Positions 2,911 to 19,403 of a stretch of 64,000 bases of DNA are shown piece after piece. Under the pieces are notes generated by a model. It did not search any database and was not told the origin of the DNA. It worked only from the letters and a program-made list of their open reading frames with translations. Position 1 is the first letter of the stretch. The number at the start of each line of letters is the position of its first letter. The position numbers were made by a program, and so were the translations under genes. The DNA comes from Spirosoma aureum (GTDB lineage: Bacteria; Bacteroidota; Bacteroidia; Cytophagales; Spirosomataceae). The stretch covers positions 7,791,001 to 7,855,000 of the forward strand of contig NZ_CP050063.1 of NCBI RefSeq assembly GCF_011604685.1, written 5' to 3'.

Positions 2911-2961
2911 GTCATCACGCTTGTCGCGCTAAAGCAGCCTTGCTACGAGCAGTTTTGGGCC
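2911..2961 (+). promoter_or_regulatory. phage late promoter candidate, copy 1
   Basis: This starts with the 18-base box GTCATCACGCTTGTCGCG. After exactly 24 bases comes TTTTG (2953-2957), and the ATG follows 4 bases later at 2962. The spacing between the two boxes is identical to copies at 3868, 13551 and 19352. The box is conserved at third codon positions and variable at first and second positions, which argues for a DNA or RNA signal rather than coding sequence. No Shine-Dalgarno site precedes the ATG. Confidence 0.6.
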
Positions 2962-3444
2962 ATGACGGACCTTCTCTTCGACGGGGCAAATAATCCAGCC
3001 GGCAATTTTCTTGTCCGGTTTGTGCCGGTGGTGGGTGTAGCGATACTACCCACCCCGGCCCCCTCTGGTCCGAATGCGGGCAGTATTGGTTCGCCGACGT
3101 TTGTGACGGGTTACCGCTGGTTCACCGCCTACGGTACCGACGAGACCAAATCCATCGAGGAGGAACAGAAACTGGACGATAACGGCTCGGTCTGGGCCAT
3201 TGCCATTCAGGCCTGGCTGCCGGGTGATTCCGCCCAGCGTCGGTTGCAATTGGCTGAAATGGTCCGCCACCGCTTTCTGGTCGCTGTCGAGGACAACATT
3301 GGCCTGGTCCGTGTCTTTGGTACCAAAGTCGAGAGTCTTCAATTTACGTATCGTTTTCAGGTTGACAAACAAATGGGTGGCCGGCGCGGCTACCTGATCA
3401 GTTTTAGTGGCAGTTCAACCAGTCCTGCTCCCATTCTACTCTAA
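2962..3444 (+). CDS. phage structural-type protein of unknown function, 160 aa
   Basis: Start chosen at ATG 2962, directly behind promoter-like copy 1; the frame is open upstream but that part is the tail of the previous gene read in another frame. The product is a beta-rich protein with a Pro-rich loop near residue 30-45 (LPTPAPSGPNAGS), then a helix with LAEMVRHRFLVAVED. The size and fold impression fit a head-tail or tail-completion protein, but this is inference only. It precedes a small membrane protein and the terminator at 3818. Confidence 0.65.
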   Translation: MTDLLFDGANNPAGNFLVRFVPVVGVAILPTPAPSGPNAGSIGSPTFVTGYRWFTAYGTDETKSIEEEQKLDDNGSVWAIAIQAWLPGDSAQRRLQLAEMVRHRFLVAVEDNIGLVRVFGTKVESLQFTYRFQVDKQMGGRRGYLISFSGSSTSPAPILL

Positions 3445-3458
3445 AACCCCTGCTTAGT

Positions 3459-3773
3459 ATGCTTACAGCCCTCCTGCTCCTGCTAATGACCACCGGCTAC
3501 GTGCTGGTTAAAATCCTGTCCAATCGGAAATCGTTCTGGCGATCTGGGTCGCGTCAGCCTGGCTGCCGTATCGGTTATAACCGAGTGGAAATGCCTGACC
3601 GTACTGCTTTTTTAGGCGCACTACGCCGGTTTCTGACCGCTTTTATCCAGTCAGCCTGGCTTCGGTTTAGCCGGCTGGCTCACTCCGCTCGCCGGTTCAC
3701 CCAGGTTCCCCTGCTGCTGTGTCGTCAAGTATTGATGACGCTTTGTTTTGGCCGGGGCATCCTGCATGGCTAA
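3459..3773 (+). CDS. small membrane protein, 104 aa
   Basis: The N-terminus (MLTALLLLLMTTGYVLVKIL) is a single transmembrane helix or uncleaved signal anchor. The remainder is strongly basic, with many Arg and no acidic clusters, so it would sit in the cytoplasm or bind nucleic acid or phospholipid. It starts 14 bases behind the preceding stop and is the last gene before the terminator at 3818-3848. Function unknown; the low-complexity basic part makes it a less certain gene than its neighbours. Confidence 0.45.
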   Translation: MLTALLLLLMTTGYVLVKILSNRKSFWRSGSRQPGCRIGYNRVEMPDRTAFLGALRRFLTAFIQSAWLRFSRLAHSARRFTQVPLLLCRQVLMTLCFGRGILHG

Positions 3774-3817
3774 GAAAAAAGAATACGTTACGAGGTAAAT
3801 TACATGGGATTAGTTAA

Positions 3818-3848
3818 AGCGGCCACCTACTGGGTGGTCGCTTTTTTT
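3818..3848 (+). terminator. intrinsic terminator just ahead of the head gene promoter candidate
   Basis: A 10-bp stem (AGCGGCCACC with GGTGGTCGCT, one G-T pair), loop TACTG, and then seven T residues. Promoter-like copy 2 begins 20 bases further on, so a transcription unit ends here and another begins. Confidence 0.85.
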
Positions 3849-3867
3849 GTGTCTGCGGGGTCGGCAC

Positions 3868-3918
3868 GTCATCACGGGTGTCGCGGCCTACCTGCGTCGG
3901 GCGGGGCTACTTCGGCCC
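3868..3918 (+). promoter_or_regulatory. phage late promoter candidate, copy 2 (head operon)
   Basis: The box GTCATCACGGGTGTCGCG is followed after 24 bases by CTTCG (3910-3914) and the ATG at 3919 comes 4 bases later. It sits 20 bases behind a strong terminator, the best positional argument that the repeated element is a promoter. Confidence 0.65.
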
Positions 3919-5403
3919 ATGAATCGCAACTTTCGGACCTTCTCGGCCCTGCTTCGAACGGATTGGTGTATCGATCCCCAGTATGCCAATGATCATCTGG
4001 AGGTCGTCAACAGTTTCCTGACCGGCACTTTTTCGCCCAAACTGTTTTTTGGCGATGAGGAAGAGGAGGACGAAAAACCCCTGGCCTATGCCGTCTCCCT
4101 GATGGCAGGTTCCAGCGGCCAAACGCCTTCGCTGAGCCGCCATGACCTGGACGATCCGGATATGCCGGAAAACTCCATTCTGGTGGTACCCATCTCGGGG
4201 CCCATCTTCAAAGAAGGGTTTTGTGGTTCGGCTGGTGCCCTCGATTATGCGCAGGCTATCAATGAAGCCTACGCCAATCCCAAAATCATTGGCACCATCC
4301 AGCTGGTCGATTCGCCCGGTGGCCAGCTCTCGGGAACACCCACCCTCTACGATGCCATTCGGAATCCCGCTAAGCCCAGCATCACCCTGATTTATGATGG
4401 CATGATGGCCTCAGCGGCGCTGTGGCTCTCGGTTGGGTCCAACAAGATCTATGCTTCCCAGCCAACGGATCAGGTTGGTTCGGCGGGTGTTTTTGTCACC
4501 CTGCGCGATAACTCGGAAGCGATGGCGAAAGCGGGCTACAAAACGATCTACATCTACTCGGATCTGTCGCCCGAAAAGAACAAACCCTACCGGGAAGCCT
4601 TAGCGGGCAACACCAAGCCGATGCGGGAAGATCTCAACCAGGCTGCCAGCCATTTCCACACGGCCGTCAAAACGGGTCGTGGTGATCGGCTCAAGCCAAT
4701 TGAGAAAGATGGCCCAAACCTGTTCGAGGGGGGCATGTTCTACGCCGATGAGGCCATCGAGCTGGGCCTTATCGATGGTTACGCTACGCTGGAGCAGGCA
4801 GTTGCCGAGATTGTCGAACTGCACACAAAGCGCACACATTCGGCTCCTGGCGGTCGCTATGGAGCGACTGAAATCCCTGTTTTACAGGGCACTACCCTTG
4901 ATTCAACCGCGCCCACAGATGCGCCCGAGGCACCCACAACCGGTGCCATAACCGCCGAAGAGCTTACTGCTCCAGAAGCTACCCAACCCCAATCCAATCA
5001 AATCCCTACTGACATGTCTCTGTTTGGTAACAAACACAAGGTGCTCTCGAGCCTGGCTGGCGTCGAAGCTTCCGAAATCTCGGACGATCAGCTCAACGCA
5101 GTCAATGCCGAGCTGGATTCGCTCAACATCAAAGGTGTGCGCATCATCAGCACGACCTACCTCGAACAGGCGGACGCTTCGGTGGCCGAGCTGGCGACAG
5201 CCAACACAACGATCGCCACCATCACCCAGGAGCGGGATAATGCCCGCGCTGAAGCCGAGAAGTTCGGCAATCAGCCTGGTCATCTAGGCTCCAAGTCAGG
5301 CAAAGTAGCGGAAGCAACAGTGCCGACAGCGGGCGAGAAACTGATCTCCGAAGTCGATCAGGAGTTAATCGATCGCGAGAGTAAAATCAAGCGGCACGAC
5401 TAA
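3919..5403 (+). CDS. head maturation protease (S49/SppA-like) fused to a scaffold domain
   Basis: The 494-residue product (from ATG 3919) has an S49/SppA-type serine protease domain at about residues 85-290: a strand entering VDSPGG (about 130-134), the nucleophile region MMASAALWLS with Ser about 165, and QVGSAGVF (about 185-192), the equivalent of the family's GSIGV. A Pro/Thr/Glu-rich linker (about 315-365) leads to a C-terminal part (366-494) with a coiled coil (TTIATITQERDNARAEAEKF) and an acidic/basic end, typical of a scaffold. In lambda-like phages such a protease cleaves scaffold and capsid inside the prohead. An in-frame ATG at 5014 may also release the scaffold alone. A hairpin separates it from the capsid gene. 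Confidence 0.85.
   Translation: MNRNFRTFSALLRTDWCIDPQYANDHLEVVNSFLTGTFSPKLFFGDEEEEDEKPLAYAVSLMAGSSGQTPSLSRHDLDDPDMPENSILVVPISGPIFKEGFCGSAGALDYAQAINEAYANPKIIGTIQLVDSPGGQLSGTPTLYDAIRNPAKPSITLIYDGMMASAALWLSVGSNKIYASQPTDQVGSAGVFVTLRDNSEAMAKAGYKTIYIYSDLSPEKNKPYREALAGNTKPMREDLNQAASHFHTAVKTGRGDRLKPIEKDGPNLFEGGMFYADEAIELGLIDGYATLEQAVAEIVELHTKRTHSAPGGRYGATEIPVLQGTTLDSTAPTDAPEAPTTGAITAEELTAPEATQPQSNQIPTDMSLFGNKHKVLSSLAGVEASEISDDQLNAVNAELDSLNIKGVRIISTTYLEQADASVAELATANTTIATITQERDNARAEAEKFGNQPGHLGSKSGKVAEATVPTAGEKLISEVDQELIDRESKIKRHD
5014..5403 (+). CDS. possible nested scaffold protein from an internal start
   Basis: ATG 5014 lies in frame within the protease gene, exactly at the end of the Pro/Thr-rich linker (the sequence before it is NQIPTD). 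Starting here would give 129 residues, MSLFGNKHKVLSSL onward, containing only the scaffold coiled coil. The arrangement matches lambda C/Nu3, where the scaffold is made from an internal start. The ATG has no clear Shine-Dalgarno site, which is common in Bacteroidota. Inference from layout. Confidence 0.45.
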   Translation: MSLFGNKHKVLSSLAGVEASEISDDQLNAVNAELDSLNIKGVRIISTTYLEQADASVAELATANTTIATITQERDNARAEAEKFGNQPGHLGSKSGKVAEATVPTAGEKLISEVDQELIDRESKIKRHD

Positions 5404-5427
5404 ACCAGGCGCTTAGAAGCACCTGGT
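5404..5427 (+). promoter_or_regulatory. hairpin between protease-scaffold and capsid genes
   Basis: ACCAGG pairs with CCTGGT, and GCTT with AAGC inside it, separated by a one-base mismatch on each side and a 2-base loop. It begins right behind the TAA stop codon. No T-run follows. A hairpin with the same ACCAGG core follows the capsid gene, so both may be mRNA processing or stability elements. Confidence 0.5.
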
Positions 5428-5481
5428 CAGTTCGCTGCCCGGGTGCCACACCCATCCGTAACCAATCAAGACAGCTAAAAC

Positions 5482-6564
5482 GTGGCAACCCAATCCAACA
5501 TTTCCGCTATTGCCAATTACGCCGGCGATTATTCGGCGGTAATTTTTGAGCAGGTATTTCAAAATCTCGACATCGCCAAAGATGTCGATTTGATCCAGAA
5601 TCTGGACACCCCGCTCATTTTACCAAAATACACGGCTAACGATGGCGTTCGTCCCTACGACAGCACCATCACCCAGCCAAACGGTCAGGCCGGCACGTTC
5701 TCCCAGCGCACCATCACGCCCCGCACGTCGATGAAGCTGTTGAACATCATTCCGGAAGAGCTACGGGGTACGTATCTCTCGCGCGGCCTGAAAGCCAATG
5801 CGAAGGATTACCCCCTCGGCTTCGGGCAGTACTACTGGAGTCAGCAGACCAAGAAAATCGCCGACGAAATCAACCGCAACGCCTATTTCGCGGTCGATCC
5901 TCAGTCGATTACACCGTACAATGCCGGCACGGCCTATGCAGTTGGCGACAAGATCCTGTTCAGCAACGGCACGACCAACGATTACTACCAGTGCGCTGTC
6001 ATCACCACGGCCGGTCAGTCACCGACCTCGACACCGGCTTCCTGGACCAACATCAACAACCGCTGCCAGGGTGCCGGTTTCGGTACGATCCTGGCCGCTG
6101 AATACGGGAGCCTGCCTGCCGCCAACAAGATCGCTACGGGTGCCATCACCGACACCAACGCGTTCGATAAAGTGGTGCTGATGTACCAGTCGATGCCCGC
6201 TGAAAAGCAGGCGCTCGGCGGTGAGTTTAAAGTGAGCTACAACGTCTATCAGAAATACCTGAATGCGTTGCTTACTAAGTTCACCAATGGCACCAGCTTC
6301 ATGCAGGTACCGGGTTCTCCTTCACTGTACGTCTACGGATCGGGCAACCGCTGGATCCTGACGCCGTCTACCTGGATGGGAGCCTCGCAGCGGATCATCG
6401 TTACGCAGAAAGAAAACCTGAAAATGGGTACCGACCTCCTGTCTGATCTGAACACGATCGGCAACATGGTTCCCCATATCCACGGCTTCTACTGCAAGTT
6501 CCAGTTCATCCTGGCTTACCAGTTCGTCGATCTGGATCTGTTGTACGTCAACGATCAGGCGTAA
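5482..6564 (+). CDS. major capsid protein with a CBM5/12-like inserted segment
   Basis: GTG start at 5482, 360 residues. The order protease-scaffold-this gene, the length and the lack of signal or catalytic motifs identify it as the major capsid protein. Residues 1-140 and 195-360 read as one fold with long strands. Between them, residues about 144-189 carry the pattern Y-x3-Y-x2-GD-x-I-x-F-x6-Y-Y-x-C-x5-AG-x-SP-x6-W. This is the aromatic/Gly signature of small carbohydrate-binding modules of the CBM5/12 type. Such a surface insertion could decorate the capsid and bind host or matrix glycans. Hairpins precede and follow the gene, consistent with a separately controlled, abundant message. A structure prediction would test the domain boundary. 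Confidence 0.8.
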   Translation: MATQSNISAIANYAGDYSAVIFEQVFQNLDIAKDVDLIQNLDTPLILPKYTANDGVRPYDSTITQPNGQAGTFSQRTITPRTSMKLLNIIPEELRGTYLSRGLKANAKDYPLGFGQYYWSQQTKKIADEINRNAYFAVDPQSITPYNAGTAYAVGDKILFSNGTTNDYYQCAVITTAGQSPTSTPASWTNINNRCQGAGFGTILAAEYGSLPAANKIATGAITDTNAFDKVVLMYQSMPAEKQALGGEFKVSYNVYQKYLNALLTKFTNGTSFMQVPGSPSLYVYGSGNRWILTPSTWMGASQRIIVTQKENLKMGTDLLSDLNTIGNMVPHIHGFYCKFQFILAYQFVDLDLLYVNDQA

Positions 6565-6594
6565 GCCAATCCATTGCTCTCTCATTCTCTTCCG

Positions 6595-6632
6595 TCTGCC
6601 TGGTACAACTAGAACAAGGCGTACCAGGCAGA
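6595..6632 (+). promoter_or_regulatory. 12-bp perfect hairpin after the capsid gene
   Basis: TCTGCCTGGTAC (6595-6606) pairs perfectly with GTACCAGGCAGA (6621-6632) around a 14-base loop. No T-run follows, so read-through to the gene at 6661 is likely. It may protect or process the capsid mRNA, or be a weak terminator that attenuates downstream genes relative to capsid. Confidence 0.6.
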
Positions 6633-6660
6633 TTCACCGGATAAAAACACGCTAGAAATC

Positions 6661-7086
6661 GTGGACGAAAAAGATAAAAAAATCGAAGACCTAGAAGGTG
6701 CCCTGGCCGATAAAGCCGGTCAACTGACGGCGGCGCTAAGCGCCAAAACAGACCTGGAGAAAGACTTGGTTGCCTCGAAAGCCTTCAACCTGGAACTAAA
6801 AACCCAGGTGGACGCGCAGGCCAAAACCATTCTGGCCAACGATAAGGAGCTGAGCGATGCGGCTGATATCGTCGTCGATCTGAAAAAGAAACTGGCTGAA
6901 AAGCCGGTGGCGGAGGAAAAACCGGCTTTCCCGGTCCTCAAACTGGGCAAAGACAAATTCGAATTGCTCGAACCGGCCTTCAATTACCGGGGCGTCATTG
7001 TCGATCAGGCGGCACTCGAAGCCGATAGCGATCTGCTCAAAGAGCTGATCGTCGAAGGCGTTTCGTTTTTGCGCAAAGTCAAGTAA
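6661..7086 (+). CDS. small coiled-coil head protein, 141 aa
   Basis: GTG start at 6661. Residues about 1-80 form a long charged coiled coil (heptads such as IEDLEGALADKAGQL), followed by a Lys/Pro-Glu linker (EKPVAEEKP) and a compact C-terminal domain (about 92-141). In phages, a short gene directly after the capsid gene often encodes a head decoration, fastener or head-tail protein; the helical first half fits a stabilising or assembly role. I cannot name the family. It is followed 65 bases later by the 174-residue structural gene. Confidence 0.65.
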   Translation: MDEKDKKIEDLEGALADKAGQLTAALSAKTDLEKDLVASKAFNLELKTQVDAQAKTILANDKELSDAADIVVDLKKKLAEKPVAEEKPAFPVLKLGKDKFELLEPAFNYRGVIVDQAALEADSDLLKELIVEGVSFLRKVK

Positions 7087-7150
7087 GCCTGCACGCTGCT
7101 TTGTTATAACCGGGCTTAGACCCACCGTACCTTAAACCGTCTTTACGACA

Positions 7151-7675
7151 ATGACTTATGCCGATCTGATCGGTCCCGATGGCACCGAGAACAACATGGG
7201 TGGAACGGCCCAGTTTCTCTATTTTACGCCCTGGATCGACATTGCCACCTTTGCCGCTCCGGCCGCATTGCCCGCCCAGCAATCGCTTCTGACGACCCCG
7301 CACACCATGAAGACGGGTAAGAAGTTTCAGACTCTCTACGTAACCATCGATACCTCCGATCTGGAGATCGCCTTAAATGGTGATATCGACGGGATCAGCT
7401 TCAAACCGACGCTGAAATGCTTCTACCCCGGCTTCTCGGACGGTATCGTCGATTTCATCAACAAGGCCAAAAACGATAAGTTTTTGTTCCTAGTCCCGCT
7501 GCCTGACGGCAAAATCGTTCAGATCGGCTCATCCCGCTTTGTGGCCTACGTCAAACCCAGTCCCAAAACGGACAAGACAACGGGTCGGGGCCGGGGTACC
7601 GAATTTGAGATCTTCTGCTTCCAGCCCGATTATTTGATTTACAATGCGGCTGTACCGCTCACGCCGGCTGCGTAA
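7151..7675 (+). CDS. phage structural protein, possibly tail tube, 174 aa
   Basis: A beta-rich soluble protein of 174 residues, with no signal peptide. The long alternating strands (FQTLYVTIDTSDLEIAL, KFLFLVPLPDGKIVQIGSS), the Gly/Pro turns and its position after the capsid genes fit a tail tube or head-tail joining protein. The next genes are two small ORFs that could be tail chaperones. I hold tail tube as the best guess because no other gene in the window is a better candidate, but the evidence is indirect. Confidence 0.6.
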   Translation: MTYADLIGPDGTENNMGGTAQFLYFTPWIDIATFAAPAALPAQQSLLTTPHTMKTGKKFQTLYVTIDTSDLEIALNGDIDGISFKPTLKCFYPGFSDGIVDFINKAKNDKFLFLVPLPDGKIVQIGSSRFVAYVKPSPKTDKTTGRGRGTEFEIFCFQPDYLIYNAAVPLTPAA

Positions 7676-7690
7676 TCGCCCTGACTGATC

Positions 7691-7888
7691 ATGGCCAAAG
7701 CCAAGCCTGCACCCGCTTACCAGGTCAACGGCCTTTCTCCCCAAACGCCCGACGGGCCGATCCCGATCGAGTTCCGGGGACGAACCTACGATCTGCTGCA
7801 CCTGAGTCCCGAGGAACTGGCCTTTCTGCTCCAGTATCCCGATCAGGTGCCGTATCTGATACAAGAAACCAGCCAGTCGAATGGCTAA
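7691..7888 (+). CDS. small phage protein, 65 aa
   Basis: ATG 7691, 15 bases behind the preceding stop. The N-terminus is Ala/Lys/Pro-rich and the C-terminal half has a short helix pattern LSPEELAFLLQYPDQVPYLI, similar to the LLQYPELLE stretch of the partial gene at the left window edge. Short proteins of this kind accompany structural genes in Bacteroidota phages, and a role as a chaperone or regulator is possible. A strong terminator follows. Confidence 0.6.
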   Translation: MAKAKPAPAYQVNGLSPQTPDGPIPIEFRGRTYDLLHLSPEELAFLLQYPDQVPYLIQETSQSNG

Positions 7889-7895
7889 GTAGTGG

Positions 7896-7928
7896 CAAAG
7901 GGCCCGGTTTTGCCGGGCCACTTTGTTT
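7896..7928 (+). terminator. GC-rich terminator after the head genes
   Basis: GGCCCGG pairs with CCGGGCC around TTTTG, extended by AAAG and CTTT on the outside, and TTGTTTC follows. It ends the head transcription unit immediately before the ATG at 7936. Confidence 0.7.
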
Positions 7929-7935
7929 CAGCCTG

Positions 7936-8568
7936 ATGCAAGAAACGATCGATTCACTCACCGCCTGGCTCGCCGAGCCCGATTACAACCAGGGCCTTCA
8001 GCTCTATGAGCAGCTGATCGGCTCAGGCTTCGTGTTAAGTATGCTGCAGGCCGGCGAAGACGAGTACAACTCGCTTCGTCTTTCGGTCGCTTTGCAGACC
8101 CGATTGGAGGAGCTGCTGGCTGAGCAGGCGCAGCAGGCTTCTCAGTATCCAGCCTCCCTGGCTGATCAACTGGAGCGGGCCAAACTGTTGATGGACGAAC
8201 GGACGATCCTCAAGGAGCGCCTTCGGGCGCAGTACCAGCGGGGCGTCATGTATTCTGCCGATTCGCATCAGTGGGCCTTTCGGATTCTGGCCATCAAGGA
8301 AGAGCTCGACGCCATTTACGGCCGCCGGCGCTTTTACGATGCGCATGGCTATCTGCCCGAAGCCGCTCAGCTGGATACTGGCTTGTCCCCGGCCGATCTA
8401 CTCAAGCGGCGCAACAGCGTCCGCACCTACATCACCAAATACCAACAGACCCTGGCCATTACCTACCAGGCTGACGCCCTTGAGCGCGTCCAGACCAAAT
8501 TGGCCCAGTACCGCTCGGAGCTGCACGATCTCGACCAGCAGCTGCAGGCTTTTCAATCCAGTAACTAA
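7936..8568 (+). CDS. coiled-coil phage protein of unknown function, 210 aa
   Basis: An almost wholly helical protein, with coiled-coil segments at about residues 50-110 (LEELLAEQAQQASQYPASL, LERAKLLMDERTILKERL) and 155-210 (ending LDQQLQAFQSS). No catalytic motif, membrane segment or signal. It begins right after a terminator, so translation requires a promoter inside or near the terminator, or read-through. Helical proteins of this size occur in Bacteroidota mobile elements next to terminase genes, but I cannot name the family. Confidence 0.65.
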   Translation: MQETIDSLTAWLAEPDYNQGLQLYEQLIGSGFVLSMLQAGEDEYNSLRLSVALQTRLEELLAEQAQQASQYPASLADQLERAKLLMDERTILKERLRAQYQRGVMYSADSHQWAFRILAIKEELDAIYGRRRFYDAHGYLPEAAQLDTGLSPADLLKRRNSVRTYITKYQQTLAITYQADALERVQTKLAQYRSELHDLDQQLQAFQSSN

Positions 8569-8582
8569 ACAATTTAGCAACC

Positions 8583-9320
8583 ATGATACTGACTCGACCC
8601 GGTAACAAACGTCGCATTGCCGCCAAGATTACGCCCCATTTCCCCGACCATGACCTATTCATTGACCTATTCTTTGGCGCTGGCGGGATGTTTTTCAATA
8701 AAGAAAAGTCGAAACATAACATTGTTAACGACTTTGATTCGGAGGTCTATAACCTCTTCCAGGTCATTACAACCCGCAAAGAGGAATTAGCCCGGTTCTG
8801 GGAAATCATGCCGGTACACGAAGACCTCTGGAAATACTGGCGGGAAAACAAGGAGAGCGATCCGATCCGGAAAGCAGCCCGGTTTCTGTTCTTTTCCAAT
8901 TTCGGCTTTATGGGGCGTATGGCCACCATGAAGTTTGACCGTTCCAACACCTACTGGCTGGTGCTCATGCGCCTGAGCGAAGTACAAAAACAGTTGCAGG
9001 GTGTGCAGCTGATGAACTGCGATTTTCGCGACGTCATCCGTCGGATATCGCTCCGGGACGGTGGCCACAAAAAAGCCTTCATCTACGCCGATCCACCCTA
9101 CCTCGACACCAAAGGAGGCACCTATGAGGGCTTTACGAAAAACGACTCGATTGACCTGTTTACTTGTTTGCTCGAGTCCAATTGCCGCTTTGCCATCTCT
9201 GAATTCAATCACCCCTTTATTCTGCAATTAGCTCGTACCAACCAGCTCAATGTCATTGAAATCGGGGAACGACAAAATATGAAGAATCGCCGCATGGAGA
9301 TTCTGATCACCAACTATTAA
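8583..9320 (+). CDS. D12-class DNA adenine N6-methyltransferase (Dam-like)
   Basis: 245 residues with the D12/Dam class order: an N-terminal P-G-N-K basic start, the SAM-binding FFGAGG motif (about residues 28-33), a variable target-recognition region, and the catalytic DPPY motif (about 163-166, in YADPPYLD). The length is at the low end for the family. It transfers a methyl group from SAM to adenine N6 in a short palindrome (not predictable here). It lies between head and terminase genes, where phage methylases protect DNA or modify pac/cos recognition. Codon use resembles the neighbours, so it is long resident. Confidence 0.9.
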   Translation: MILTRPGNKRRIAAKITPHFPDHDLFIDLFFGAGGMFFNKEKSKHNIVNDFDSEVYNLFQVITTRKEELARFWEIMPVHEDLWKYWRENKESDPIRKAARFLFFSNFGFMGRMATMKFDRSNTYWLVLMRLSEVQKQLQGVQLMNCDFRDVIRRISLRDGGHKKAFIYADPPYLDTKGGTYEGFTKNDSIDLFTCLLESNCRFAISEFNHPFILQLARTNQLNVIEIGERQNMKNRRMEILITNY

Positions 9321-9335
9321 CGCTTTACCGATGCC

Positions 9336-9566
9336 ATGGCAGCAGAGCTAATCCAAATCACCCTTGATGAGCAGGACGAACCCGTCCTCTCATTTACCCA
9401 TAATCCGGCGGCTAGTGGCATTGAGCAAAAATTGCTCGGAGCCCTGATTCGAAAAGCCAAAGCCAGCGGTGGGCTGGAGCTCCATGTTGCCCTGGTATAC
9501 GGTGAGTCCGATGAGAAGCCCCTGTGGGACTATCACATCCGCGCCAAACGAGCTGAATCGCTATGA
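9336..9566 (+). CDS. small phage protein, 76 aa
   Basis: A short alpha/beta protein (MAAELIQITLDEQDEPVL onward) with no signal or membrane segment. Its stop codon overlaps the ATG of the terminase small subunit (9563) by 4 bases, so the two are translationally coupled. It may be a terminase accessory factor, but no family is recognised. Confidence 0.6.
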   Translation: MAAELIQITLDEQDEPVLSFTHNPAASGIEQKLLGALIRKAKASGGLELHVALVYGESDEKPLWDYHIRAKRAESL

Positions 9567-10183
9567 GCACCGAACTAAGCCTGGCCCAGATGCCGGCGAC
9601 CAAATGGGAGGATAAGTACGATCTGGTCCTGCGCTGGGCCCGCGACGAGCGATCCGACGATGATCCCCTGCGCACGCGCATTCCGGCCGCCCTGGAACAG
9701 CAGTTTCGACGCTGGAATCAGATCTATGGCTTGCTGCAGGCCGGCACCTACAGTAAAACCACCGAACAGATCGCTGTCGTCAAAAAGACCTTTCCGGGGA
9801 TATCGGACCGCACGGCCCGCAACCTGCTGGCCGATACCAAACGCTTCTTTTCGGTGCTCGATGCGCCCAACCTGGCCTGGGAACGGCTGACGCTGATCGA
9901 GGAAGTGCGCGAAGACATCAAACTGGCTCGCCAGAAAGGCGATTTCCGGTCGGTTGCCGCTCTGCGCACGCTCTATGCCAAACTTACTGGTGCCGATCAG
10001 CCCGAAGAGGTGGTGGAGAACAAAACCATCTTCAACATCATCGCCTTCAATCCCGAGCAATTGGGCGTCGAGCTGATCGATCCCGATAAGCTCGATACCA
10101 TGATCCGCTCCATTACGGCCAGCGATAAAAAGAAACGCGACGATTTTTTCACCCAATTCGAGGATGTCACCGAAGCCAAGTAA
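9563..10183 (+). CDS. terminase small subunit-like protein
   Basis: 206 residues, directly upstream of and overlapping the large subunit gene by 20 bases. Residues about 40-100 contain helices with a helix-turn-helix-like run (TEQIAVVKKTFPGISDRTARNLL), suited to DNA binding, and the remainder is a charged helical oligomerisation region. Small subunits recognise pac or cos and load the large subunit. The identification rests on position, size and the HTH-like segment, since small subunits are poorly conserved. Confidence 0.75.
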   Translation: MSTELSLAQMPATKWEDKYDLVLRWARDERSDDDPLRTRIPAALEQQFRRWNQIYGLLQAGTYSKTTEQIAVVKKTFPGISDRTARNLLADTKRFFSVLDAPNLAWERLTLIEEVREDIKLARQKGDFRSVAALRTLYAKLTGADQPEEVVENKTIFNIIAFNPEQLGVELIDPDKLDTMIRSITASDKKKRDDFFTQFEDVTEAK

Positions 10184-13475: not shown

Positions 13476-13525
13476 ACAAATACGGTTTTGGTTTTCCGGT
13501 AAATCTACACAAAAACAGGCGACAT

Positions 13526-13541
13526 AACTAATGCATTAGTT
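13526..13541. promoter_or_regulatory. 16-bp perfect palindrome, operator candidate
   Basis: AACTAATGCATTAGTT is a perfect palindrome in the 69-base gap between the reverse-strand 322-aa gene and promoter-like copy 3, with CAT and ATG-like outer arms. It sits 10 bases before the GTCATCACG box, well placed to control both directions. Confidence 0.6.
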
Positions 13542-13550
13542 GTTATGCGC

Positions 13551-13604
13551 GTCATCACGCCTGTCGCGCCCGGACAGTACGGCACGGAGCACTTTCGTAG
13601 CTGT
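13551..13604 (+). promoter_or_regulatory. phage late promoter candidate, copy 3 (portal operon)
   Basis: The box GTCATCACGCCTGTCGCG is followed after exactly 24 bases by TTTCG (13593-13597), and ATG 13605 lies 7 bases later. It adjoins the palindrome at 13526. Because the frame is open from ATG 13545, a longer protein beginning MRVITPVAPG cannot be excluded. Confidence 0.6.
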
Positions 13605-13865
13605 ATGATCAAGGTAGCCGACATGATGCAGCAGCTGCGACAGACCGACAAAAGCGGCAAATTCCGCGTTGTCAGCCTGGTTTATGCGACGGCTCACCGC
13701 AAACGGGGTACAGCGGGCCAGTTCCGGGAGCTGCACCGGTGCCGCATGTTGTCACCCAAAAAATCGGGGGGCAATACGCTCAACTTTCAGCCCGTCGGCA
13801 GCAAAGACATCGTGGCCGTGCATCCTGATCTGATTCTCTACTTCAACCAGCAGGAGGTCGTCTAA
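13605..13865 (+). CDS. small phage protein upstream of portal, 86 aa
   Basis: I choose ATG 13605, behind promoter-like copy 3; an ATG at 13545 is in frame and would add 20 residues made entirely of the repeated element. The product (MIKVADMMQQLRQTDKSG onward) is basic with strand-forming segments. Its stop overlaps the portal start (TAATG at 13862-13867), so translation is coupled. It could be a head-assembly or portal-associated factor. No family is recognised. Confidence 0.55.
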   Translation: MIKVADMMQQLRQTDKSGKFRVVSLVYATAHRKRGTAGQFRELHRCRMLSPKKSGGNTLNFQPVGSKDIVAVHPDLILYFNQQEVV

Positions 13866-15259
13866 TGAACATAACCTACTTTGCCGGCAGCTCCCACGAT
13901 GTAGCCGTTTTGAGCCACAATAACGTGGCCATCAGCCTGGAAAATGATAAACCCGGTCGGGCCACGCCCGTTGGCCAGCGAACTACTGGCGATCAACCGG
14001 GGGCCAAGCCCAGCGTGTCCACGCCGAATCTGGCCCTGTTTCCCAGTTTTGGGGGCGATATCATGCCCTGGGGCGAAGGCAACGATTTTCCGCAGCGCAT
14101 CCGCAACCTCTACAACAAAGATCCGTTAATTCCCCAGACGCTGGGTAAAACAGCCTCCATGCTGGTGGGCAAAGGGGTGATGGCCGTCGAGATCGATCTC
14201 GACGACAACGGCGATGAGATCGTGCGGGCCGTTCGGGATCCGGAAATCAACGAGTTCATTCATTCGCTGCATTTTCGCAAATACCTCCACAAGACGGCCG
14301 GGCACGTGGCCTGGTTTTTCAATGCCTTTCCCGAGCCGATCGTTACCAAGAATCGGAAGAAAATTCTTTACCTCAACCCCCTACCGGCCGACGAATGCCG
14401 CTGGTGCCGAATGACGCCCGAGGGCGATCTGCCGTACGTCTATCTGAATGCCAACTGGCCCAATGCCACCACGTCAGATGCGCACGTCAAGCAGATTCAT
14501 GCGCTCGATGCCGGGCGCTGGGATAAGGCCGACTGGCTGCGCGAGCAGCGTTTTTTCAACTGCATCTACCCGATTTCCTATCCGACGCCAGGCTTTCGGT
14601 TTTACAGCCTGGCCCATCACCACAGCATCGTCGAATCGGGCTGGCTCGATGTGCACCTGGCCGTGCCGGAGTTCAAGAAATTCCTGATGAAAAATCAGGT
14701 CTCGCTCAAGTATCACTTCAAGGTCGATGCCACTTACTGGGGCATGACCTACGGAGATGCCTACACCAAAGGGACGCCCGACGCCAAGCGGGCCATCAAA
14801 AAAACCTGGCTGGAGGGCATGAACAAGGCGCTGACCGACGTCGAAAAAGCCGGCGGCAGCATCATCACGGAGATGACCTGGGATAAAGAGAAGAAAGTCT
14901 TTATCGACCACATCCAGATTGAGCCCATCACCGACGCCATGAAGGACGGTAAGTACATCGAGGATAACCTCGAGGCAGCTTCCAACATCCTCTACGCGTT
15001 TGGGCTGGATCCGGTCCTGCTCGGCTTTGCGGGCGGAGCCAACCAGGCGGCCCGGTCGGGCGGCTCCGACAAACGGGAAGCGTATTTGATTGCGCTGCAA
15101 ATGCTGGCTCCCTTCCGGGACATGCTGCTCGAGCCGCTCGAATTTGTGGCGGAATACAACGGCTGGAAAGCCCGCTTTCCCAACCTGCGCTTTCAGTTTC
15201 GTGACACCATCCTGACCACGCTCGATACGGGTGCGGGCACTAAAAAAACGCTCAGCTAA
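13865..15259 (+). CDS. portal protein
   Basis: 464 residues. The long N-terminal alpha/beta region, the helix-rich middle, and the C-terminal stretch NLEAASNILYAFGLDPVLLGF followed by basic residues fit a phage portal, in which the ring sits at the capsid vertex and TerL docks. Start overlaps the preceding stop; the next gene starts at its stop (TAATG at 15257-15261). The GGSDKREAYLIALQML segment after the Gly-rich turn is the kind of helix found at the portal stem. Identification rests on length, neighbours and these features. Confidence 0.8.
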   Translation: MNITYFAGSSHDVAVLSHNNVAISLENDKPGRATPVGQRTTGDQPGAKPSVSTPNLALFPSFGGDIMPWGEGNDFPQRIRNLYNKDPLIPQTLGKTASMLVGKGVMAVEIDLDDNGDEIVRAVRDPEINEFIHSLHFRKYLHKTAGHVAWFFNAFPEPIVTKNRKKILYLNPLPADECRWCRMTPEGDLPYVYLNANWPNATTSDAHVKQIHALDAGRWDKADWLREQRFFNCIYPISYPTPGFRFYSLAHHHSIVESGWLDVHLAVPEFKKFLMKNQVSLKYHFKVDATYWGMTYGDAYTKGTPDAKRAIKKTWLEGMNKALTDVEKAGGSIITEMTWDKEKKVFIDHIQIEPITDAMKDGKYIEDNLEAASNILYAFGLDPVLLGFAGGANQAARSGGSDKREAYLIALQMLAPFRDMLLEPLEFVAEYNGWKARFPNLRFQFRDTILTTLDTGAGTKKTLS

Positions 15260-16203
15260 TGAAATTTTTCTCAGGACAGGTCGAAGAGTTTCGCCAGGTG
15301 GTGCCCGTCACGATCAATTTTACCCTGGACGATGTAAGCCCCTTTTTAAGCCGGACGGCGGAGAGTGTGCTGCTGCGCTTTTTAGGCCAGACGCTGGCCG
15401 ATCAGCTGGCCAGCCTGGTCAATGCGAACCTCGACGAGCAGACGGACCGGGTACTGATTCGGGCGCTGAAGCTGACCCGGCTGGCGGTGGGCAACATAGG
15501 CTTTGCAGAGTATCTGCCCTTTGGCGAGGTGCAGATCGAAGACGGAGCTATCACGGTGGCCGCTTCCGAGGGACGCAAGCCCGCCTTTCAATACCAGACC
15601 GACCGGCTCGAAGAAAAGCTGCTCCAGACCGGCTACCAGGCGCTGGACGATCTGATCACGCTCGTAGCCGCCAATTCGGTTTTGTTTCCGGGCTGGAGTG
15701 AAGCTCCCTACAAGGATGAATACGACAGCTCCTTTTTTAAGAGCCCTGTTGAGTTCTCCAAATCCTACGGTATTCAGGACCGCTGGCTGACGTTTTGGGC
15801 GCTCCGGCCGGCGCTTCGCTCGGTCGAGGAAAATTACGGCGAAGCCGCCCAGGCTCGCATCGATGCGCTGCCAAACACCGTAACGGACGCTCAGAAAGCC
15901 CAGCTGGGCCGGCTGCTGCGCCGAGCATTGGCCTATCAGACCATTCTGGAAGCGCTGCCGGGGCTGGCCATCGACATCGATGGGGCCAAACTGAAAGTCA
16001 ATTACGGCTCCCAGTTTGGCAACACGCAGTACTACCAGGCTCCGAGCCGGGACGACCTGAACTGGCTCCAGCAAAATCTGGAGAAACAGACCGCCCTGTT
16101 CTGGTCCACCTTCGAAAGCACCCTGTCTGCCGCGCTGCCGCCGGTTAGTGAAACGGCTACCGCCACCGGGCCGCAATCGGAAGGCTCGTTTTTTCTGCTC
16201 TAA
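15259..16203 (+). CDS. head-tail connector/adaptor-like protein, 314 aa
   Basis: Directly coupled to portal (ATG 15259 overlaps its stop). The protein is mostly helical; N-terminal strands are followed by helices around LLRFLGQTLADQLASLV, a loop region NIGFAEYLPFGEVQIEDGAI, and a long C-terminal helix. This two-part layout resembles the DUF6712-type head-tail proteins of Bacteroidota phages, but I give the family only as a guess from pattern. It would close the portal or join the tail. It is the last gene before the lysis block. Confidence 0.6.
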   Translation: MKFFSGQVEEFRQVVPVTINFTLDDVSPFLSRTAESVLLRFLGQTLADQLASLVNANLDEQTDRVLIRALKLTRLAVGNIGFAEYLPFGEVQIEDGAITVAASEGRKPAFQYQTDRLEEKLLQTGYQALDDLITLVAANSVLFPGWSEAPYKDEYDSSFFKSPVEFSKSYGIQDRWLTFWALRPALRSVEENYGEAAQARIDALPNTVTDAQKAQLGRLLRRALAYQTILEALPGLAIDIDGAKLKVNYGSQFGNTQYYQAPSRDDLNWLQQNLEKQTALFWSTFESTLSAALPPVSETATATGPQSEGSFFLL

Positions 16204-16206
16204 GCC

Positions 16207-16505
16207 ATGCGAACATTCTTAAACTACCTGCCCTCCCGGGGCTCTCCAGTCTAATCTTTCTCCTGTTGGCCTGCCTGGCTCTTGGCTTTTTGCTATTGCT
16301 GGATAGCTGCGGGCCCCACCGGCAGGCTCCTACTCAATCGATTCCTACAGTGCCCCCGGTGGATTCGGTGCGCACTCAACTGGAGAGCAGCGTTGAGCGG
16401 GCCAACAACAGCGTCATTATTTCCCAGGGCCATTCCCAATCCGCCGTAATCGACTATGAAAAAGCAAAAGAGAAATTTGATCAAAGCCGCATTACTCTGC
16501 CTTAG
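16207..16505 (+). CDS. lipoprotein with a possible -1 frameshift near the start (lysis block)
   Basis: From about 16266 the frame encodes LACLALGFLLLLDSC, a lipoprotein signal with a lipobox-like LLDSC, then a polar domain to 16505. No ATG lies in that frame upstream. An ATG at 16207 is in the +1-shifted frame and stops after 15 codons; a -1 shift at the CTTAAAC at 16218-16224 (codons TTA AAC) would join them. Either a programmed frameshift, a non-ATG start (TTG 16266) or a lesion is possible. The gene overlaps the next one by 50 bases. Position and size suggest an outer-membrane spanin-like lipoprotein. Confidence 0.5.
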
Positions 16506-17046
16506 CGTGGTGCTGGGCCTGCTGCTGAGCAAATGCTCATATGGCCAGACCGAGCCGGTTCCCTCGGTGCAGGCCATGGTCAAAAATCAGCCCTTTCCCT
16601 ACTACTGTGGGGTGGCGATGGACACCCTGCTCTACGCCCGGGTGAAAGCCCGGCTGGTGGCAGCGGACTCGCTCCGGGCCGCTTCCGAGCGGGCCATCAA
16701 GGCACTTCAGGCTGAAATCGCAGCCACGCGCAAAGCGCTGGACGATCAGTTTCGGCTGGGCCAGTACGATAAGGCCAAAGCCCAGACGCTGCTGGTGCAG
16801 ATGAATATGCTGCAGGGCCAGCTCACCCAGGTCCAGGATTATCTGCGTCAGGCGCAACTGGCCCGGGATGCCGTCGTGAAGGAACTGCCCCGCAAGGTTC
16901 GAAAACTACTGGAGCAGGCCACACCCGATCAGATTGCGGCCGCAACGGTGGACTACATCCACCTGCTGCAGAAGCGAAAATGGAAGTGGGCGGGCTGGAG
17001 TGTGGGCGGTGGGTTTGTGCTGGGGCTCTTAACCGGTTTCTTTTGA
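16456..17046 (+). CDS. spanin-like membrane protein with signal and C-terminal TM, 196 aa
   Basis: The N-terminus (KAALLCLSVVLGLLLSKCS) is an export signal, with a Cys at the end of the hydrophobic stretch that could also be a lipobox. Residues about 65-150 form a long coiled coil (SERAIKALQAEIAATRKALDDQ), and residues about 175-196 are a C-terminal transmembrane segment (GGGFVLGLLTGFF). An envelope-spanning coiled coil next to a lipoprotein and an endolysin fits an inner-membrane spanin role. The gene overlaps the lipoprotein gene and its stop overlaps the endolysin start (TGATG). Confidence 0.65.
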   Translation: MKKQKRNLIKAALLCLSVVLGLLLSKCSYGQTEPVPSVQAMVKNQPFPYYCGVAMDTLLYARVKARLVAADSLRAASERAIKALQAEIAATRKALDDQFRLGQYDKAKAQTLLVQMNMLQGQLTQVQDYLRQAQLARDAVVKELPRKVRKLLEQATPDQIAAATVDYIHLLQKRKWKWAGWSVGGGFVLGLLTGFF

Positions 17047-17615
17047 TGGCAGGCCTGCTTACCCAATCCGGCCTGCTTCAGGCAGCCCAAACCCTTCGCA
17101 CCGGCATTGCCGAGGTGCAAACGCTCGCGCACGTTGAGTCGAACGGGCAGGGCTTTCTGGATGATGGCCGGGTGACGATCCGCTTTGAACCGCACATTTT
17201 TCACGCCCGCACGGCTGGCCGGTATGATGCCAACTACCCGCTGTTGAGCTATCCGGACTGGAATCCCAAAATCCCCAAAAGCACCACTCACTCCTACCAA
17301 CTGTTCAATCAAGCCTGCACGCTCAACGCGACGGCAGCGGTACTGGCTTCGAGTTGGGGGATGTTCCAGGTGATGGGTTTCAATTTCGCCAGTTGCGGCT
17401 GTAATAACCTCAAGCAGTTTGTCAGCCTGATGGAGAAATCCGAAGACAGTCAGCTGGCCCTGACCGTAACCTATTTACGGACAACGGGCCTCGACGACGA
17501 GCTGCGGGAACACCGCTGGGAGGATCTGGCCCGGCTTTACAACGGTAAACAGTACAAACGCAACCAATATGACACCAAACTGGCTTCGGCCTATGCTTAT
17601 TTTTCACGCTTGTAA
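17046..17615 (+). CDS. endolysin, N-acetylmuramidase type
   Basis: 189 residues from ATG 17046 (the upstream ORF extension overlaps the spanin-like gene). The N-terminal motif VESNGQGFLDDGRVTIRFEP, with catalytic Glu at residue 31, is characteristic of N-acetylmuramidase (PF11860-type) endolysins, followed by NATAAVLASSWGMFQVMG, where the substrate groove is formed. The family cleaves the glycan strands of peptidoglycan. There is no signal peptide, so release depends on a holin, and a holin-like gene follows 12 bases behind the stop. It sits in the lysis block between the head-tail connector and tail genes. Confidence 0.88.
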   Translation: MAGLLTQSGLLQAAQTLRTGIAEVQTLAHVESNGQGFLDDGRVTIRFEPHIFHARTAGRYDANYPLLSYPDWNPKIPKSTTHSYQLFNQACTLNATAAVLASSWGMFQVMGFNFASCGCNNLKQFVSLMEKSEDSQLALTVTYLRTTGLDDELREHRWEDLARLYNGKQYKRNQYDTKLASAYAYFSRL

Positions 17616-17627
17616 ACTACACTCTTT

Positions 17628-17969
17628 ATGGAATGGACTGCCCTATTCACCGATACACTTAAATTATCGCCTTTTGTGGCCGCCCTCCTGTTCTTTCTGA
17701 TGAAAGTCTGGAAATCAATGGAGGTTAAAGATCAAGCCTTGATGTCGACGATGAAGGACAATCAGGCTCAGCAGCTCCTCATGCAGGAGAAGCACATTAC
17801 GGCTCAGAATAACTCCGCCGATGCCAACCGGCAATTAGCCAGCGCGATCGGCGATCTGAAGGACCACCTCTCCGACAAACTCGACGAGGTAAAAAGCACC
17901 CTGCCGGTTCGAAATGGCACGATTCGTCGCCATCCATCCACGCCCGAAAGCTCATCAAAGCCGGCCTGA
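17628..17969 (+). CDS. holin-like membrane protein, 113 aa
   Basis: A single N-terminal transmembrane segment (LSPFVAALLFFLMKVW, about residues 13-28) is followed by a charged coiled coil (about 33-90) and a Ser/Pro/Arg-rich tail, as in single-TM holins. It begins 12 bases behind the endolysin stop. The stop overlaps the next gene's ATG (TGATG, 17967-17971). Other small membrane proteins could have this layout, so the call rests on the neighbour endolysin. Confidence 0.65.
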   Translation: MEWTALFTDTLKLSPFVAALLFFLMKVWKSMEVKDQALMSTMKDNQAQQLLMQEKHITAQNNSADANRQLASAIGDLKDHLSDKLDEVKSTLPVRNGTIRRHPSTPESSSKPA

Positions 17970-18826
17970 TGAACACCATCGAACTGCACATTCGGGGCAA
18001 ACGCCACCGCTTCAGCGGGCCCTCGGGCTGGGCGGAGCTGACGGCCCACCAGGCCGTGTCGCTCATGCGGCTGCGGGCTCAGATCGCCCAGCGGGCCGAA
18101 ACCGCCTTTGCGGCTCTGGACCTGCTGTATGGCCTGAAAAAGCGCCATCAGCGGTGGGTGTTCGATGCCCGGTTCTTGCGCCGGAAAGGCGTTCCGGAGG
18201 AGCAGATTGTCTTGATTTTGGAGCAGGGGCAATCGCTGCTCGACACACTGCTCTGGATTGGTGAGCCCGATAAAAAAGCCAGCTTTCCGGTGCACTCGTT
18301 TCGACGCTTCGATTTTCACTTCGGTACCCCCTACATCTGGCTCAGTCGGCTCCTGACGCGCCAGCGCTACGTCGGCCCGCTGGCCGGCCTGGTCGAGATT
18401 AGTTTCGGCGAGTTCATGTTTGCCGACCGGGCCTTTCGGGCGAAGGATCTTCCCCAGCTGGCGGCCATTCTTTACCGGCCCAAAGCAGAAACGTTTGATA
18501 AACACACGGCCGAACACAGGGCCATCCTGTTTGCCGATCTGGATCCGGCCTTGCTGGCGCTGATCAGCCAGAACTTCGCCGATACGCTCGATTTTCTGAG
18601 TCGCCATTTTCGGCGGGTGTTCGCTGAGCCCCTCTCGACGGGTACGGTCAGTAAAGCGGGCAAATCAGCGGGCTGGCTCGATATCGCCATCAACATGGCC
18701 AAACTCGACGTGACCAAGATCGGCCAGATCGAGCAGACCAATCTGTACCTGGCCCTGAAAGTGCTCGACGAGCAGATCCGCCAGGCCGAAGAGCTGGAAG
18801 AAGCACTGGCCAAAAACAAATCCTGA
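17969..18826 (+). CDS. phage tail-associated protein, possible chaperone, 285 aa
   Basis: A helical, basic, soluble protein. The N-terminal 45 residues (MNTIELHIRGKRHRFSGPSGWAEL) look like a small beta unit. The C-terminal 45 residues read as GWLDIAINMAKLDVTKIGQIEQTNLYLALKVLDEQ, a pattern I associate with proteins encoded ahead of tape measures in Bacteroidota phages. It is coupled to the holin gene and separated by one base from the next gene. Function is not certain; a tail-assembly chaperone is the best guess. Confidence 0.55.
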   Translation: MNTIELHIRGKRHRFSGPSGWAELTAHQAVSLMRLRAQIAQRAETAFAALDLLYGLKKRHQRWVFDARFLRRKGVPEEQIVLILEQGQSLLDTLLWIGEPDKKASFPVHSFRRFDFHFGTPYIWLSRLLTRQRYVGPLAGLVEISFGEFMFADRAFRAKDLPQLAAILYRPKAETFDKHTAEHRAILFADLDPALLALISQNFADTLDFLSRHFRRVFAEPLSTGTVSKAGKSAGWLDIAINMAKLDVTKIGQIEQTNLYLALKVLDEQIRQAEELEEALAKNKS

Positions 18827-18827
18827 C

Positions 18828-19337
18828 ATGAACGAGCTCGACTACATTGCCTACTTCGAAAACCTGGCTCGCCAGCACAAAGCCCTTCGCCATTCCGAGC
18901 AGGAGTGCCACTTCTTTGTGGTATCTGATAGTTCCAAAGCTGAAATCGAGCAGGCGATCGCCAAAAAGCTCAGACTGCCGGCTCTGCTGCTCGACCAGTA
19001 CCTGGATGACCTGGAGACGGGCCACGATAACTTCCGTTTGCGGGTGATGGGCGGGGTTACGGTTCTGGTGAAGTGTCAGTCGGGCGATGCCCAGGATCGC
19101 CGGCGGGCGCGGGATGAAGCCCGCACGATCGCGCTGAGCCTACTCAACCGCATGCGCAGGGATGTGCGAACCGCTGGTTCGGCCCTGCAGCAAAAAGGGG
19201 TGGTACTCGATATCGAATTCAAAGGGGAGCCGGCTCCGTTCGTGTTGCAGAGTGCCGACGGCTGGGGCTACGGCTTTGAGTGGCTGCTGCCCACCAGCGT
19301 CAAGATCGATGCCGAGCAGTGGCTGGATTTGCCCTAG
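18828..19337 (+). CDS. phage tail completion-like protein, 169 aa
   Basis: A compact alpha/beta protein with a helical N-terminus and a C-terminal strand-rich segment (GWGYGFEWLLPTSVKID). The pattern of helix, strand and Arg-rich central region (RRARDEARTIALSLLNRMRRD) resembles tail completion or terminator proteins, but no family is firmly identified. Its stop at 19337 is 14 bases ahead of promoter-like copy 4. Confidence 0.55.
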   Translation: MNELDYIAYFENLARQHKALRHSEQECHFFVVSDSSKAEIEQAIAKKLRLPALLLDQYLDDLETGHDNFRLRVMGGVTVLVKCQSGDAQDRRRARDEARTIALSLLNRMRRDVRTAGSALQQKGVVLDIEFKGEPAPFVLQSADGWGYGFEWLLPTSVKIDAEQWLDLP

Positions 19338-19351
19338 CCGGATCCGGCCTC

Positions 19352-19403
19352 GTCATCACGGGTGTCGCGCCCGATCCCTCAGCCAGGGGGCTATTTCGCG
19401 GGC
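19352..19403 (+). promoter_or_regulatory. phage late promoter candidate, copy 4 (tail operon)
   Basis: The box GTCATCACGGGTGTCGCG is followed after exactly 24 bases by TTTCG (19394-19398), and ATG 19404 lies 5 bases later. Here the element is not in frame with the downstream gene, unlike the other copies, which supports conservation at the DNA level. Confidence 0.65.

Follow-up and report, generated by a model that had tools for sequence, protein, structure and literature searches.

A 64-kb window of a Spirosoma-type host genome (8.9 Mb, single contig), the whole stretch of DNA that was analyzed, contains four copies of a bipartite element in which an 18-base upstream box, GTCATCACGNNTGTCGCG, is followed by a YTTYG box close to an ATG. 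Judged from its sequence, the stretch is a prophage of a temperate tailed phage, termed prophage A. We estimate a probability of roughly 80% that the four elements are its late promoters, bound near -35 by the product of the gene X201, with the host sigma factor reading the -7 box. According to the proposed mechanism, X201 would be made from an early promoter that lacks the box and would bind the box at about -51 to -34, replacing the -33 element. The C-terminal helix of X201 (residues 165-176) is predicted to read the proximal half of the box, TGTCGCG in prophage A. X201 would recruit or hold the host RNA polymerase, sigma-A would read the degenerate -7 box CAnYTTYG, and transcription would start at the ATG or a few bases from it.

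The element in the window

The four copies reported in an earlier sequence-only reading were all recovered as exact matches on the plus strand (Table 1). When three mismatches were permitted, no further site appeared in the 64 kb, for which dinucleotide shuffles gave 0.52 loose matches on average. The four are also the sole exact copies in the whole genome, where ten extra box-like sites were found with at most two mismatches, five of these inside a second prophage (prophage B, described below). In each copy, 24 bases separate the box from YTTYG, which reads TTTTG, CTTCG, TTTCG, and TTTCG in copies 1 to 4, respectively; the spacer of 24 bases given previously is correct for this five-base word, TTYG proper beginning 25 bases past the box. 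The ATG follows after a further 4, 4, 7, and 5 bases, exactly as had been described. Measured from the start of the box, the ATG is 51, 51, and 54 bases away in copies 1, 2, and 3, and 52 bases away in copy 4, which is therefore out of frame with its gene, as the same reading had pointed out. Coding conservation was rejected as the cause of the box since the boxes sit ahead of genes and copy 4 is out of frame. A former remark on the codon positions of variable bases in the box has no bearing, given that the box does not lie within the genes that it precedes.

Stop codons at 2909 and 19337 precede copies 1 and 4, and copy 3 adjoins a minus-strand open reading frame (ORF) at 12507-13475, in agreement with the description of two copies after stops and one beside a divergent gene. 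A strong terminator had been placed 20 bases ahead of one copy. A terminator-like hairpin with 13 pairs, at the top of the hit list for positions 2000-20000, is indeed present before copy 2, its end lying 23 bases from the box. This hairpin speaks for a promoter and against an element of the leader RNA. The idea that the element is a translation signal in the 5' untranslated region, to which its ending at the start codon in the window would lend itself, is hardly tenable in view of the hairpin and of many Flavobacterium-type phages, in which the spacing of 25 bases between box and TTYG (hereafter N25) is kept although the ATG lies further off, often by at least 13 nt.

Related phages with boxes of their own

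Prophage B, located at ~5.01-5.05 Mb of the same genome, is syntenic with prophage A through the late genes and contains five copies of GTCATCACGCCTGTAACG, four of which precede homologues of the four box-led genes of the window. Eight further distinct phages were collected, five via similarity to the protease (G287, G338, G059, L021, and L022) and three via similarity to X201 (G522, G520, and G431b); G521 and L090 were dropped, being the same phages as L022 and G338. Relatives occur in records named Spirosoma, Fibrisoma, and Arsenicibacter. The ten distinct (pro)phages display ten versions of the box ahead of homologous late genes: GTCATCACGNNTGTCGCG in A, GTCATCACGCCTGTAACG in B, GTCATCACGCCTGTCACG in L022, GTCATCGCGGGTGTCGCG in G338, GTCTCATCGGGTGTCGCG in G287, KGTGYAGGGTGTCGCG in G059, TCACCGRGSTTGTCGCR in G522, GGCATTCCGTCTGTTACG in G520, CGTACAACGWTTGTCRGR in G431b, and GAACCMGGCCCS in L021. 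A search of 390 genomes of the order for GTCATCACGNNTGTNNCG gave 16 exact matches, nine of which lie within prophages A and B. When each phage was scanned with its own pattern, 42 sites were obtained, with none on the minus strand. It should be noted that the patterns came from these same phages, so that the site counts are descriptive, and the test resides in spacing and strand. The scan of the genome and of related prophages that the sequence-only reading had proposed thus places the boxes ahead of homologous late genes at the same spacing, and not randomly inside genes, which supports the assignment as phage late promoters.

The boxes are not universal, as none stands directly before gene 1 in G522; there, a box is found 86 bases upstream of gene 3. 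The stretch fetched for G520 stops ahead of genes 3-4 and that for G522 ahead of gene 4, and those of L021 and L022 are incomplete. The homologue of gene 4 has a box upstream in every relative whose stretch extends that far. Additional boxes lie shortly after X201 in B, G338, G520, and G522, and elsewhere in G287 and G059; two more, with one mismatch each, are present in L022.

These last two boxes, at 36610 and 41457 of G391 (the record of L022), overlap apparent terminator hairpins (AACCGCCCG..CGGGCGGTTTTT), and promoter and terminator seem to be fused there as one cassette. The extra box just past X201 (L015 14812-14900; composite G338 18103) was seen by eye to lie within inverted repeats that span the -7 box, with no ATG nearby.

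Spacing, the -7 box, and predicted start sites

Across the 42 sites, TTYG lies at offset 25 from the box in 27, at offset 24 in six, and at offset 16 once, and nowhere else within 10-44, the background being 0.0092 per position. At offset 25, T occurs in 42/42 sites and TT in 41/42, corresponding to predicted positions -8 and -7; G-5 is found in 28 sites and A-11 in 30. A Bacteroidota-type -7 box, as suggested earlier, gains support from the same positions and spacing in the related phages, but C stands at -12 in 27 sites and at -6 in 23. With TTYG at -8 to -5, the upstream box spans about -51 to -34 and is centred near -42, a place that class II activators occupy, and its proximal half falls on the position of the -33 element. 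For the 38 sites with TT[TC][GC] at 24-25, the gap to the ATG is 4 nt in 17, 5 nt in nine, and 3 nt in three; it is 7, 8, and 9 nt once each, and no ATG lies within 16 nt in the remaining six. In both copies 1 and 2, the A of the ATG is the predicted +1. Because the ATG stands at the predicted +1 of a Bacteroidota -7 box, the late mRNAs are predicted from position to be nearly leaderless, a suggestion of the earlier reading that the spacing in relatives supports.

In Flavobacterium johnsoniae, the -7 box reads T-12 A-11 N N T-8 T-7 T-6 G-5 and is separated from the start by 4-5 nt in probable promoters, the -33 element being generally weak, and leaders exceed 10 nt in 87% of transcripts with a probable promoter, according to PMC6847099. 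A value of 5.5%, apparently for leaderless mRNAs of Flavobacterium psychrophilum, appears in PMC9723704, and ~3.7% of the 5' untranslated regions of Bacteroides thetaiotaomicron are shorter than 10 nt, as stated in PMC7366714. Few mRNAs of the phylum have very short leaders. The elements resemble the Bacteroidota sigma-A promoter (-33 TTTG/-7 TAnnTTTG; PMC6847099) in carrying TTYG where TTTG would stand, with 4-5 nt left to the start, and a common A at -11. They differ in C for T at -12, in T or C at -6, in the phage box at -33, and in the predicted nearly leaderless start. No TTTG was found at -33, where each phage has a box of its own, for instance TGTCGCG or TGTAACG.

X201 as candidate reader of the box

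X201 is the last gene before the first late promoter, its stop lying 2 bases upstream of the box of copy 1. Outside the late block, it alone was found in each of the seven phages of the first comparison (BLAST at E ≤ 1e-4, with ORFs of at least 50 aa). Leaving A and B aside, the other five had been reached via the protease, independently of X201; G522, G520, and G431b were reached via X201, so that finding it in these three does not count as independent evidence. A phage-specific factor that reads the box had been postulated, and X201, the predicted recognition helix of which covaries with the box, now supplies a candidate. The AlphaFold2 model of X201 (pLDDT 89.5) ends in helices 145-155 and 165-176 and a further short one. 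All five phages with TGTCGCG carry Q-x-Y-L-R-[YH]-R-[KR] in helix 165-176, which is the case for 0/5 of the others among the ten.

A search of 5.8 billion proteins with an X201 profile retrieved 24, those of the query phages among them, and none of the 24 bears a functional name. In Pfam and PHROG, no family was matched by more than one of 26 X201 members (best E 0.0038 in each), and neither a Mor-type domain nor MotA domains were among the matches at E ≤ 1. The best match in a sequence search of the PDB had E 0.11, and no tblastn match to the X201 of the window was obtained among deposited phages.

It could be supposed that X201 itself acts as a minimal sigma-like factor of the phage, recognizing both box and YTTYG in place of host sigma-A. 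The -7 box departs consistently from TAnnTTTG, with C at -12 in 27/42 sites and C at -6 in 23/42, which weighs against the proposed mechanism and makes a phage sigma conceivable; furthermore, the box sits in the place of the -33 element, and one of the 26 members weakly matches phrog_1025, 'sigma factor' (E 0.14). We nevertheless regard a sigma-like X201 as unlikely. No sigma family in Pfam was matched by the 26 members at E ≤ 1, and a TTYG-like -7 box persists across phages that vary in box and helix, as expected if the host reads the -7 box. We found no sigma domain in X201, and the -7 box retains a likeness to that of the host; for these two reasons, an activator is favoured over a sigma factor.

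Alternatively, the box may serve as an operator to which a repressor or silencer of the phage, X201 or another protein, binds and so shuts the late promoters in the lysogen. A box that overlaps the -33 region would serve a repressor equally well, and the covariation described below indicates binding, not its sign. Yet promoters with no recognizable -33 TTTG and a poor -7 box look weak unaided, the position of X201 resembles that of a delayed-early activator, and the CI-like repressor is a separate gene (L018:7219-7917), which lies with a primase-like gene upstream in prophage A. Repression through the box is thus considered very unlikely.

The stretch ahead of X201 in the window (2150-2303) is AT-rich and box-free, and is plausible as its early promoter region.

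A proposed wider family: gp042, Leef1_39, and further phages

Similarity of the terminase led to Flavobacterium phage laban6-1, in which (C)ATGTCACAA recurs before late genes, with one copy overlapping the end of gp042. Comparison of the X201 and gp042 profiles with hhalign (87%, P 4.1e-6) covered 71 columns comprising the C-terminal helices, and a hidden Markov model (HMM) of X201 applied to 499 ORFs matched Leef1_39 at 1.3e-10 and gp042 at 3e-5. The C-terminal helix pair F.D.YdfsE..sE..L+q.Y.R was seen in the alignments and in the profile comparison. The AlphaFold2 models of X201 and gp042 are alike in an N-terminal strand-helix-strand-helix and in the three last long helices, and differ mid-protein, where several strands in gp042 stand against a helix and a single strand in X201. 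By these comparisons, the X201 and gp042 families are related. The gp042 of laban6-1 matches PHROG 21888 (E 1e-25), which has no assigned function, and no X201-family member matches PHROG 21888 at E ≤ 1. A search for gp042 in 395 genomes of the phylum gave no match, an empty answer that shows nothing.

A viral scan yielded 31 gp042 loci, of which 30 were used, L131 being left out as its match begins mid-protein. A 7-base box was assigned to each locus before its helix sequence was looked at. In 22/30 loci, some of which are near-duplicates, the box lies within 50 bases of the stop with an exact N25-TTYG, and in two the spacing is N23-24; at least two plus-strand sites are present in 22/30. A box of its own near the stop, with N25-TTYG and repeated downstream, is a majority feature of the family and is not universal.

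In the more distant phage Mea-Yong924-1 (terL 42%), a box ending TGTCCTT appears five times, all on the plus strand and four times with N25-TTTG; the start codon follows after 4 nt at the copy before the gene 3 homologue and after 5 nt at the copy before the protease homologue. An earlier scan for repeated words in Leef, Ingeline, MT835542, and L102 gave no convincing repeat. TGTCCTT is found on the plus and minus strands 6 and 1 times in Leef, 7 and 2 times in Ingeline, 3 and 1 times in MT835542, and 2 and 4 times in L102, with an exact N25-TTYG after 2/7 plus copies in Ingeline, 3/3 in MT835542, and 1/2 in L102. The copies in Leef mostly precede annotated genes of the late block, and the record of MT835542 is unannotated. 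A combined HMM detected X201-like proteins in L102 (3e-17), Leef (6e-11), and Ingeline (4e-9), and weakly in MT835542 (9e-5) and Mea-Yong (0.001).

The 'Microcystis' phage Mea-Yong924-1 (L100, L101; MZ447863.1) has terminase, portal, protease, and late promoters of Bacteroidota phage type, and its stated cyanobacterial host appears doubtful.

Covariation of box and helix

The association between box bases and residues was ranked over 162 columns of 33 non-redundant proteins (10 X201, 23 gp042), 6/39 having been dropped at 80% identity or more; L137, in which the helix is not covered, stands outside the test. The z values derive from label shuffles and ignore kinship, which all columns share, so that the ranking is the safer statement. 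For base 4 of the box, residue 170 ranked first of 162 (z 7.0, next 3.1): C occurs with R (11), Q (8), K (3), or H (1), T with Q (4), V (2), or L (1), and A with I, M, or V. For bases 5-6, residue 173 ranked first of 162 (z 10.5, next 7.7), GC occurring with L in 5/5, AC with Y, W, or F in 24/24, TT with D or E in 2/2, AG with Y (1), and CC with K (1). The two residues are three apart in one predicted helix. When gp042 was considered alone, residue 170 again ranked first for base 4 (z 8.4, next 5.0). Among eight proteins of the phages, the median correlation was highest for X201 (0.47), followed by terL (0.31). For the left half of the box, X201 windows do not stand out, the best rank being 9 of 2220. 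Since box and helix change together, each phage would possess a private late-promoter code, as with TGTCGCG in A vs. TGTAACG in B.

A hold-out set comprised 16 new loci, or 13 without duplicates (L154-L156 duplicate L153). Under a relaxed rule adopted post hoc (TT at N25, with recurrence), a plausible box was found in 8/13, and 8/8 fit the code; L153 is 68% identical to the training protein L132. The hold-out is compatible with the code and not decisive.

Several observations weigh against the proposed role of X201. For the X201 proteins alone, residue 173 is barely first for bases 5-6 (z 5.3 vs. 5.1). In the ten phages, one column of X201 sorts perfectly with the box, and so do two each of the putative capsid and portal proteins; moreover, a terL window outranks the X201 helix window, which is second of 2220. 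The covariation within the ten Spirosoma-type phages alone is therefore suggestive only. In the hold-out, the strict rule that had been fixed in advance, demanding recurrence and an exact N25-TTYG at the stop, succeeded in 1/13, namely L162, whose identity to a training protein is 81%; the only N25-TTYG word of L144, TGTCTCT, shows no recurrence and would not fit the code; and the boxes of L153 and L158 were picked below the top-ranked word, 6/8 belonging to the common TGTCACA class. Among the gp042 loci, 6/30 have no TTYG at the expected distance and 8/30 show fewer than two sites, and the six plus-strand copies of TGTCCTT in Leef have N25-TTYG in 0/6. The seven-phage BLAST comparison may miss short or diverged regulators, with the stretches of L021 and L022 incomplete, and a distant X201 relative in G385 (24%) has no recognized box.

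A further alternative is that another phage or host factor reads the box and X201 is a structural or packaging protein travelling with the late block. X201 borders that block, none of the libraries assigns a DNA-binding domain to it, and other late proteins, too, have sorting columns in the ten phages. To this alternative we assign only a small chance, as the two columns of the whole protein that covary best share a helix, in which a single turn separates them, and residue 170 is also first for base 4 when gp042 is taken by itself.

Comparison with known systems and significance

In phage Mu, Mor and C are the middle and late activators and bind next to -35. The arrangement proposed for X201 shares with them a phage activator gene before the late region, a site next to -35, and several late promoters, and differs in the absence of a Pfam or PHROG match between X201 and Mor/C, in box geometry, and in the host RNA polymerase. 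At the MotA middle promoters of phage T4, a phage box replaces -35 and the host sigma reads the downstream box, as proposed for X201. The X201 box, however, lies at about -51 to -34 vs. near -30, and no sequence relation was found. The site of lambda CII, in class II activation, straddles -35, as does the X201 box with its centre near -42. X201 has no family match to CII, and a 9-bp direct repeat inside the box was seen by eye in some phages only (TCGCG/TCGCG in G338, TCACG/TCACG in L022).

We are somewhat inclined towards the broader view that X201, gp042, and Leef1_39 constitute an unrecognized family of late-transcription specificity factors across Bacteroidota tailed phages, which would replace -33 recognition through an evolvable residue-base code (170: base 4; 173: bases 5-6) and give each phage a private late programme, largely leaderless in the Spirosoma type. 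Literature searches on late promoters in Bacteroidota phages returned no description of late-gene control among the matches listed. If the proposal is right, a gene of unassigned function in many phages can be named as a regulator, sequence alone will allow late promoters to be annotated, and a set of activator-dependent promoters becomes available for studying a host RNA polymerase whose sigma factor is unusual. The natural variants of X201 and box provide a ready series on the joint evolution of a recognition helix and a DNA word. The predicted leaderless late mRNAs also bear on translation start where leaderless mRNAs are scarce.

Features of prophage A

Table 1. Features of prophage A in the 64-kb window.
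Feature	Position	Strand	Remark
X201, 201 aa, new family	2304..2909	+	candidate late-promoter reader
X201 predicted recognition helix, residues 165-176 (Q170, L173)	2796..2831	+	AlphaFold2 helix; columns 170 and 173 rank first of 162
Upstream box, copy 1	2911..2928	+	exact match
-7-like box TTTTG, copy 1	2953..2957	+	ATG 2962, its A the predicted +1
Gene 1, 160 aa, late	2962..3444	+	homologue in 10/10 phages; box ahead in nine
Terminator-like hairpin ahead of copy 2 (stem)	3816..3844	+	first of the terminator-like hits
Upstream box, copy 2	3868..3885	+	exact match
-7-like box CTTCG, copy 2	3910..3914	+	ATG 3919
Head maturation protease	3919..5403	+	phrog_53, E 4.7e-46
Terminase large subunit	10164-11909		42% match to an annotated terminase
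Upstream box, copy 3	13551..13568	+	exact match
-7-like box TTTCG, copy 3	13593..13597	+	ATG 13605
Gene 3, 86 aa, then portal gene	13605..13865	+	box upstream in nine phages whose fetched stretch shows gene 3
Endolysin	16980-17615		
Upstream box, copy 4	19352..19369	+	exact match
-7-like box TTTCG, copy 4	19394..19398	+	ATG 19404
Gene 4, tail-region protein	19404..21365	+	weak tail-fiber PHROG matches

The gene after gene 3 matches one with relatives annotated as portal protein. A Mu-like transposable phage was dropped as an interpretation of prophage A, as L018:10632 (1039 aa), first taken for a transposase, is primase-like. A minus-strand ORF of 71 aa at 12226-12441, between terminase and gene 3, is present in 5/7 phages compared; it was set aside as a candidate regulator, lying inside the late block. 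A DNA methyltransferase gene (8583-9320) lies within the head operon and is present in 3/10 phages in the stretches fetched, located elsewhere in G059. Several tail proteins of A and B (window 19404-35299 and its counterpart in L016/L017) are 87-99% identical, including those of 786 aa (99%) and 1154 aa (95%), and the head proteins are mostly 45-63% identical, with terL at 70%; from this pattern, the tail module looks as if it had been recently exchanged.

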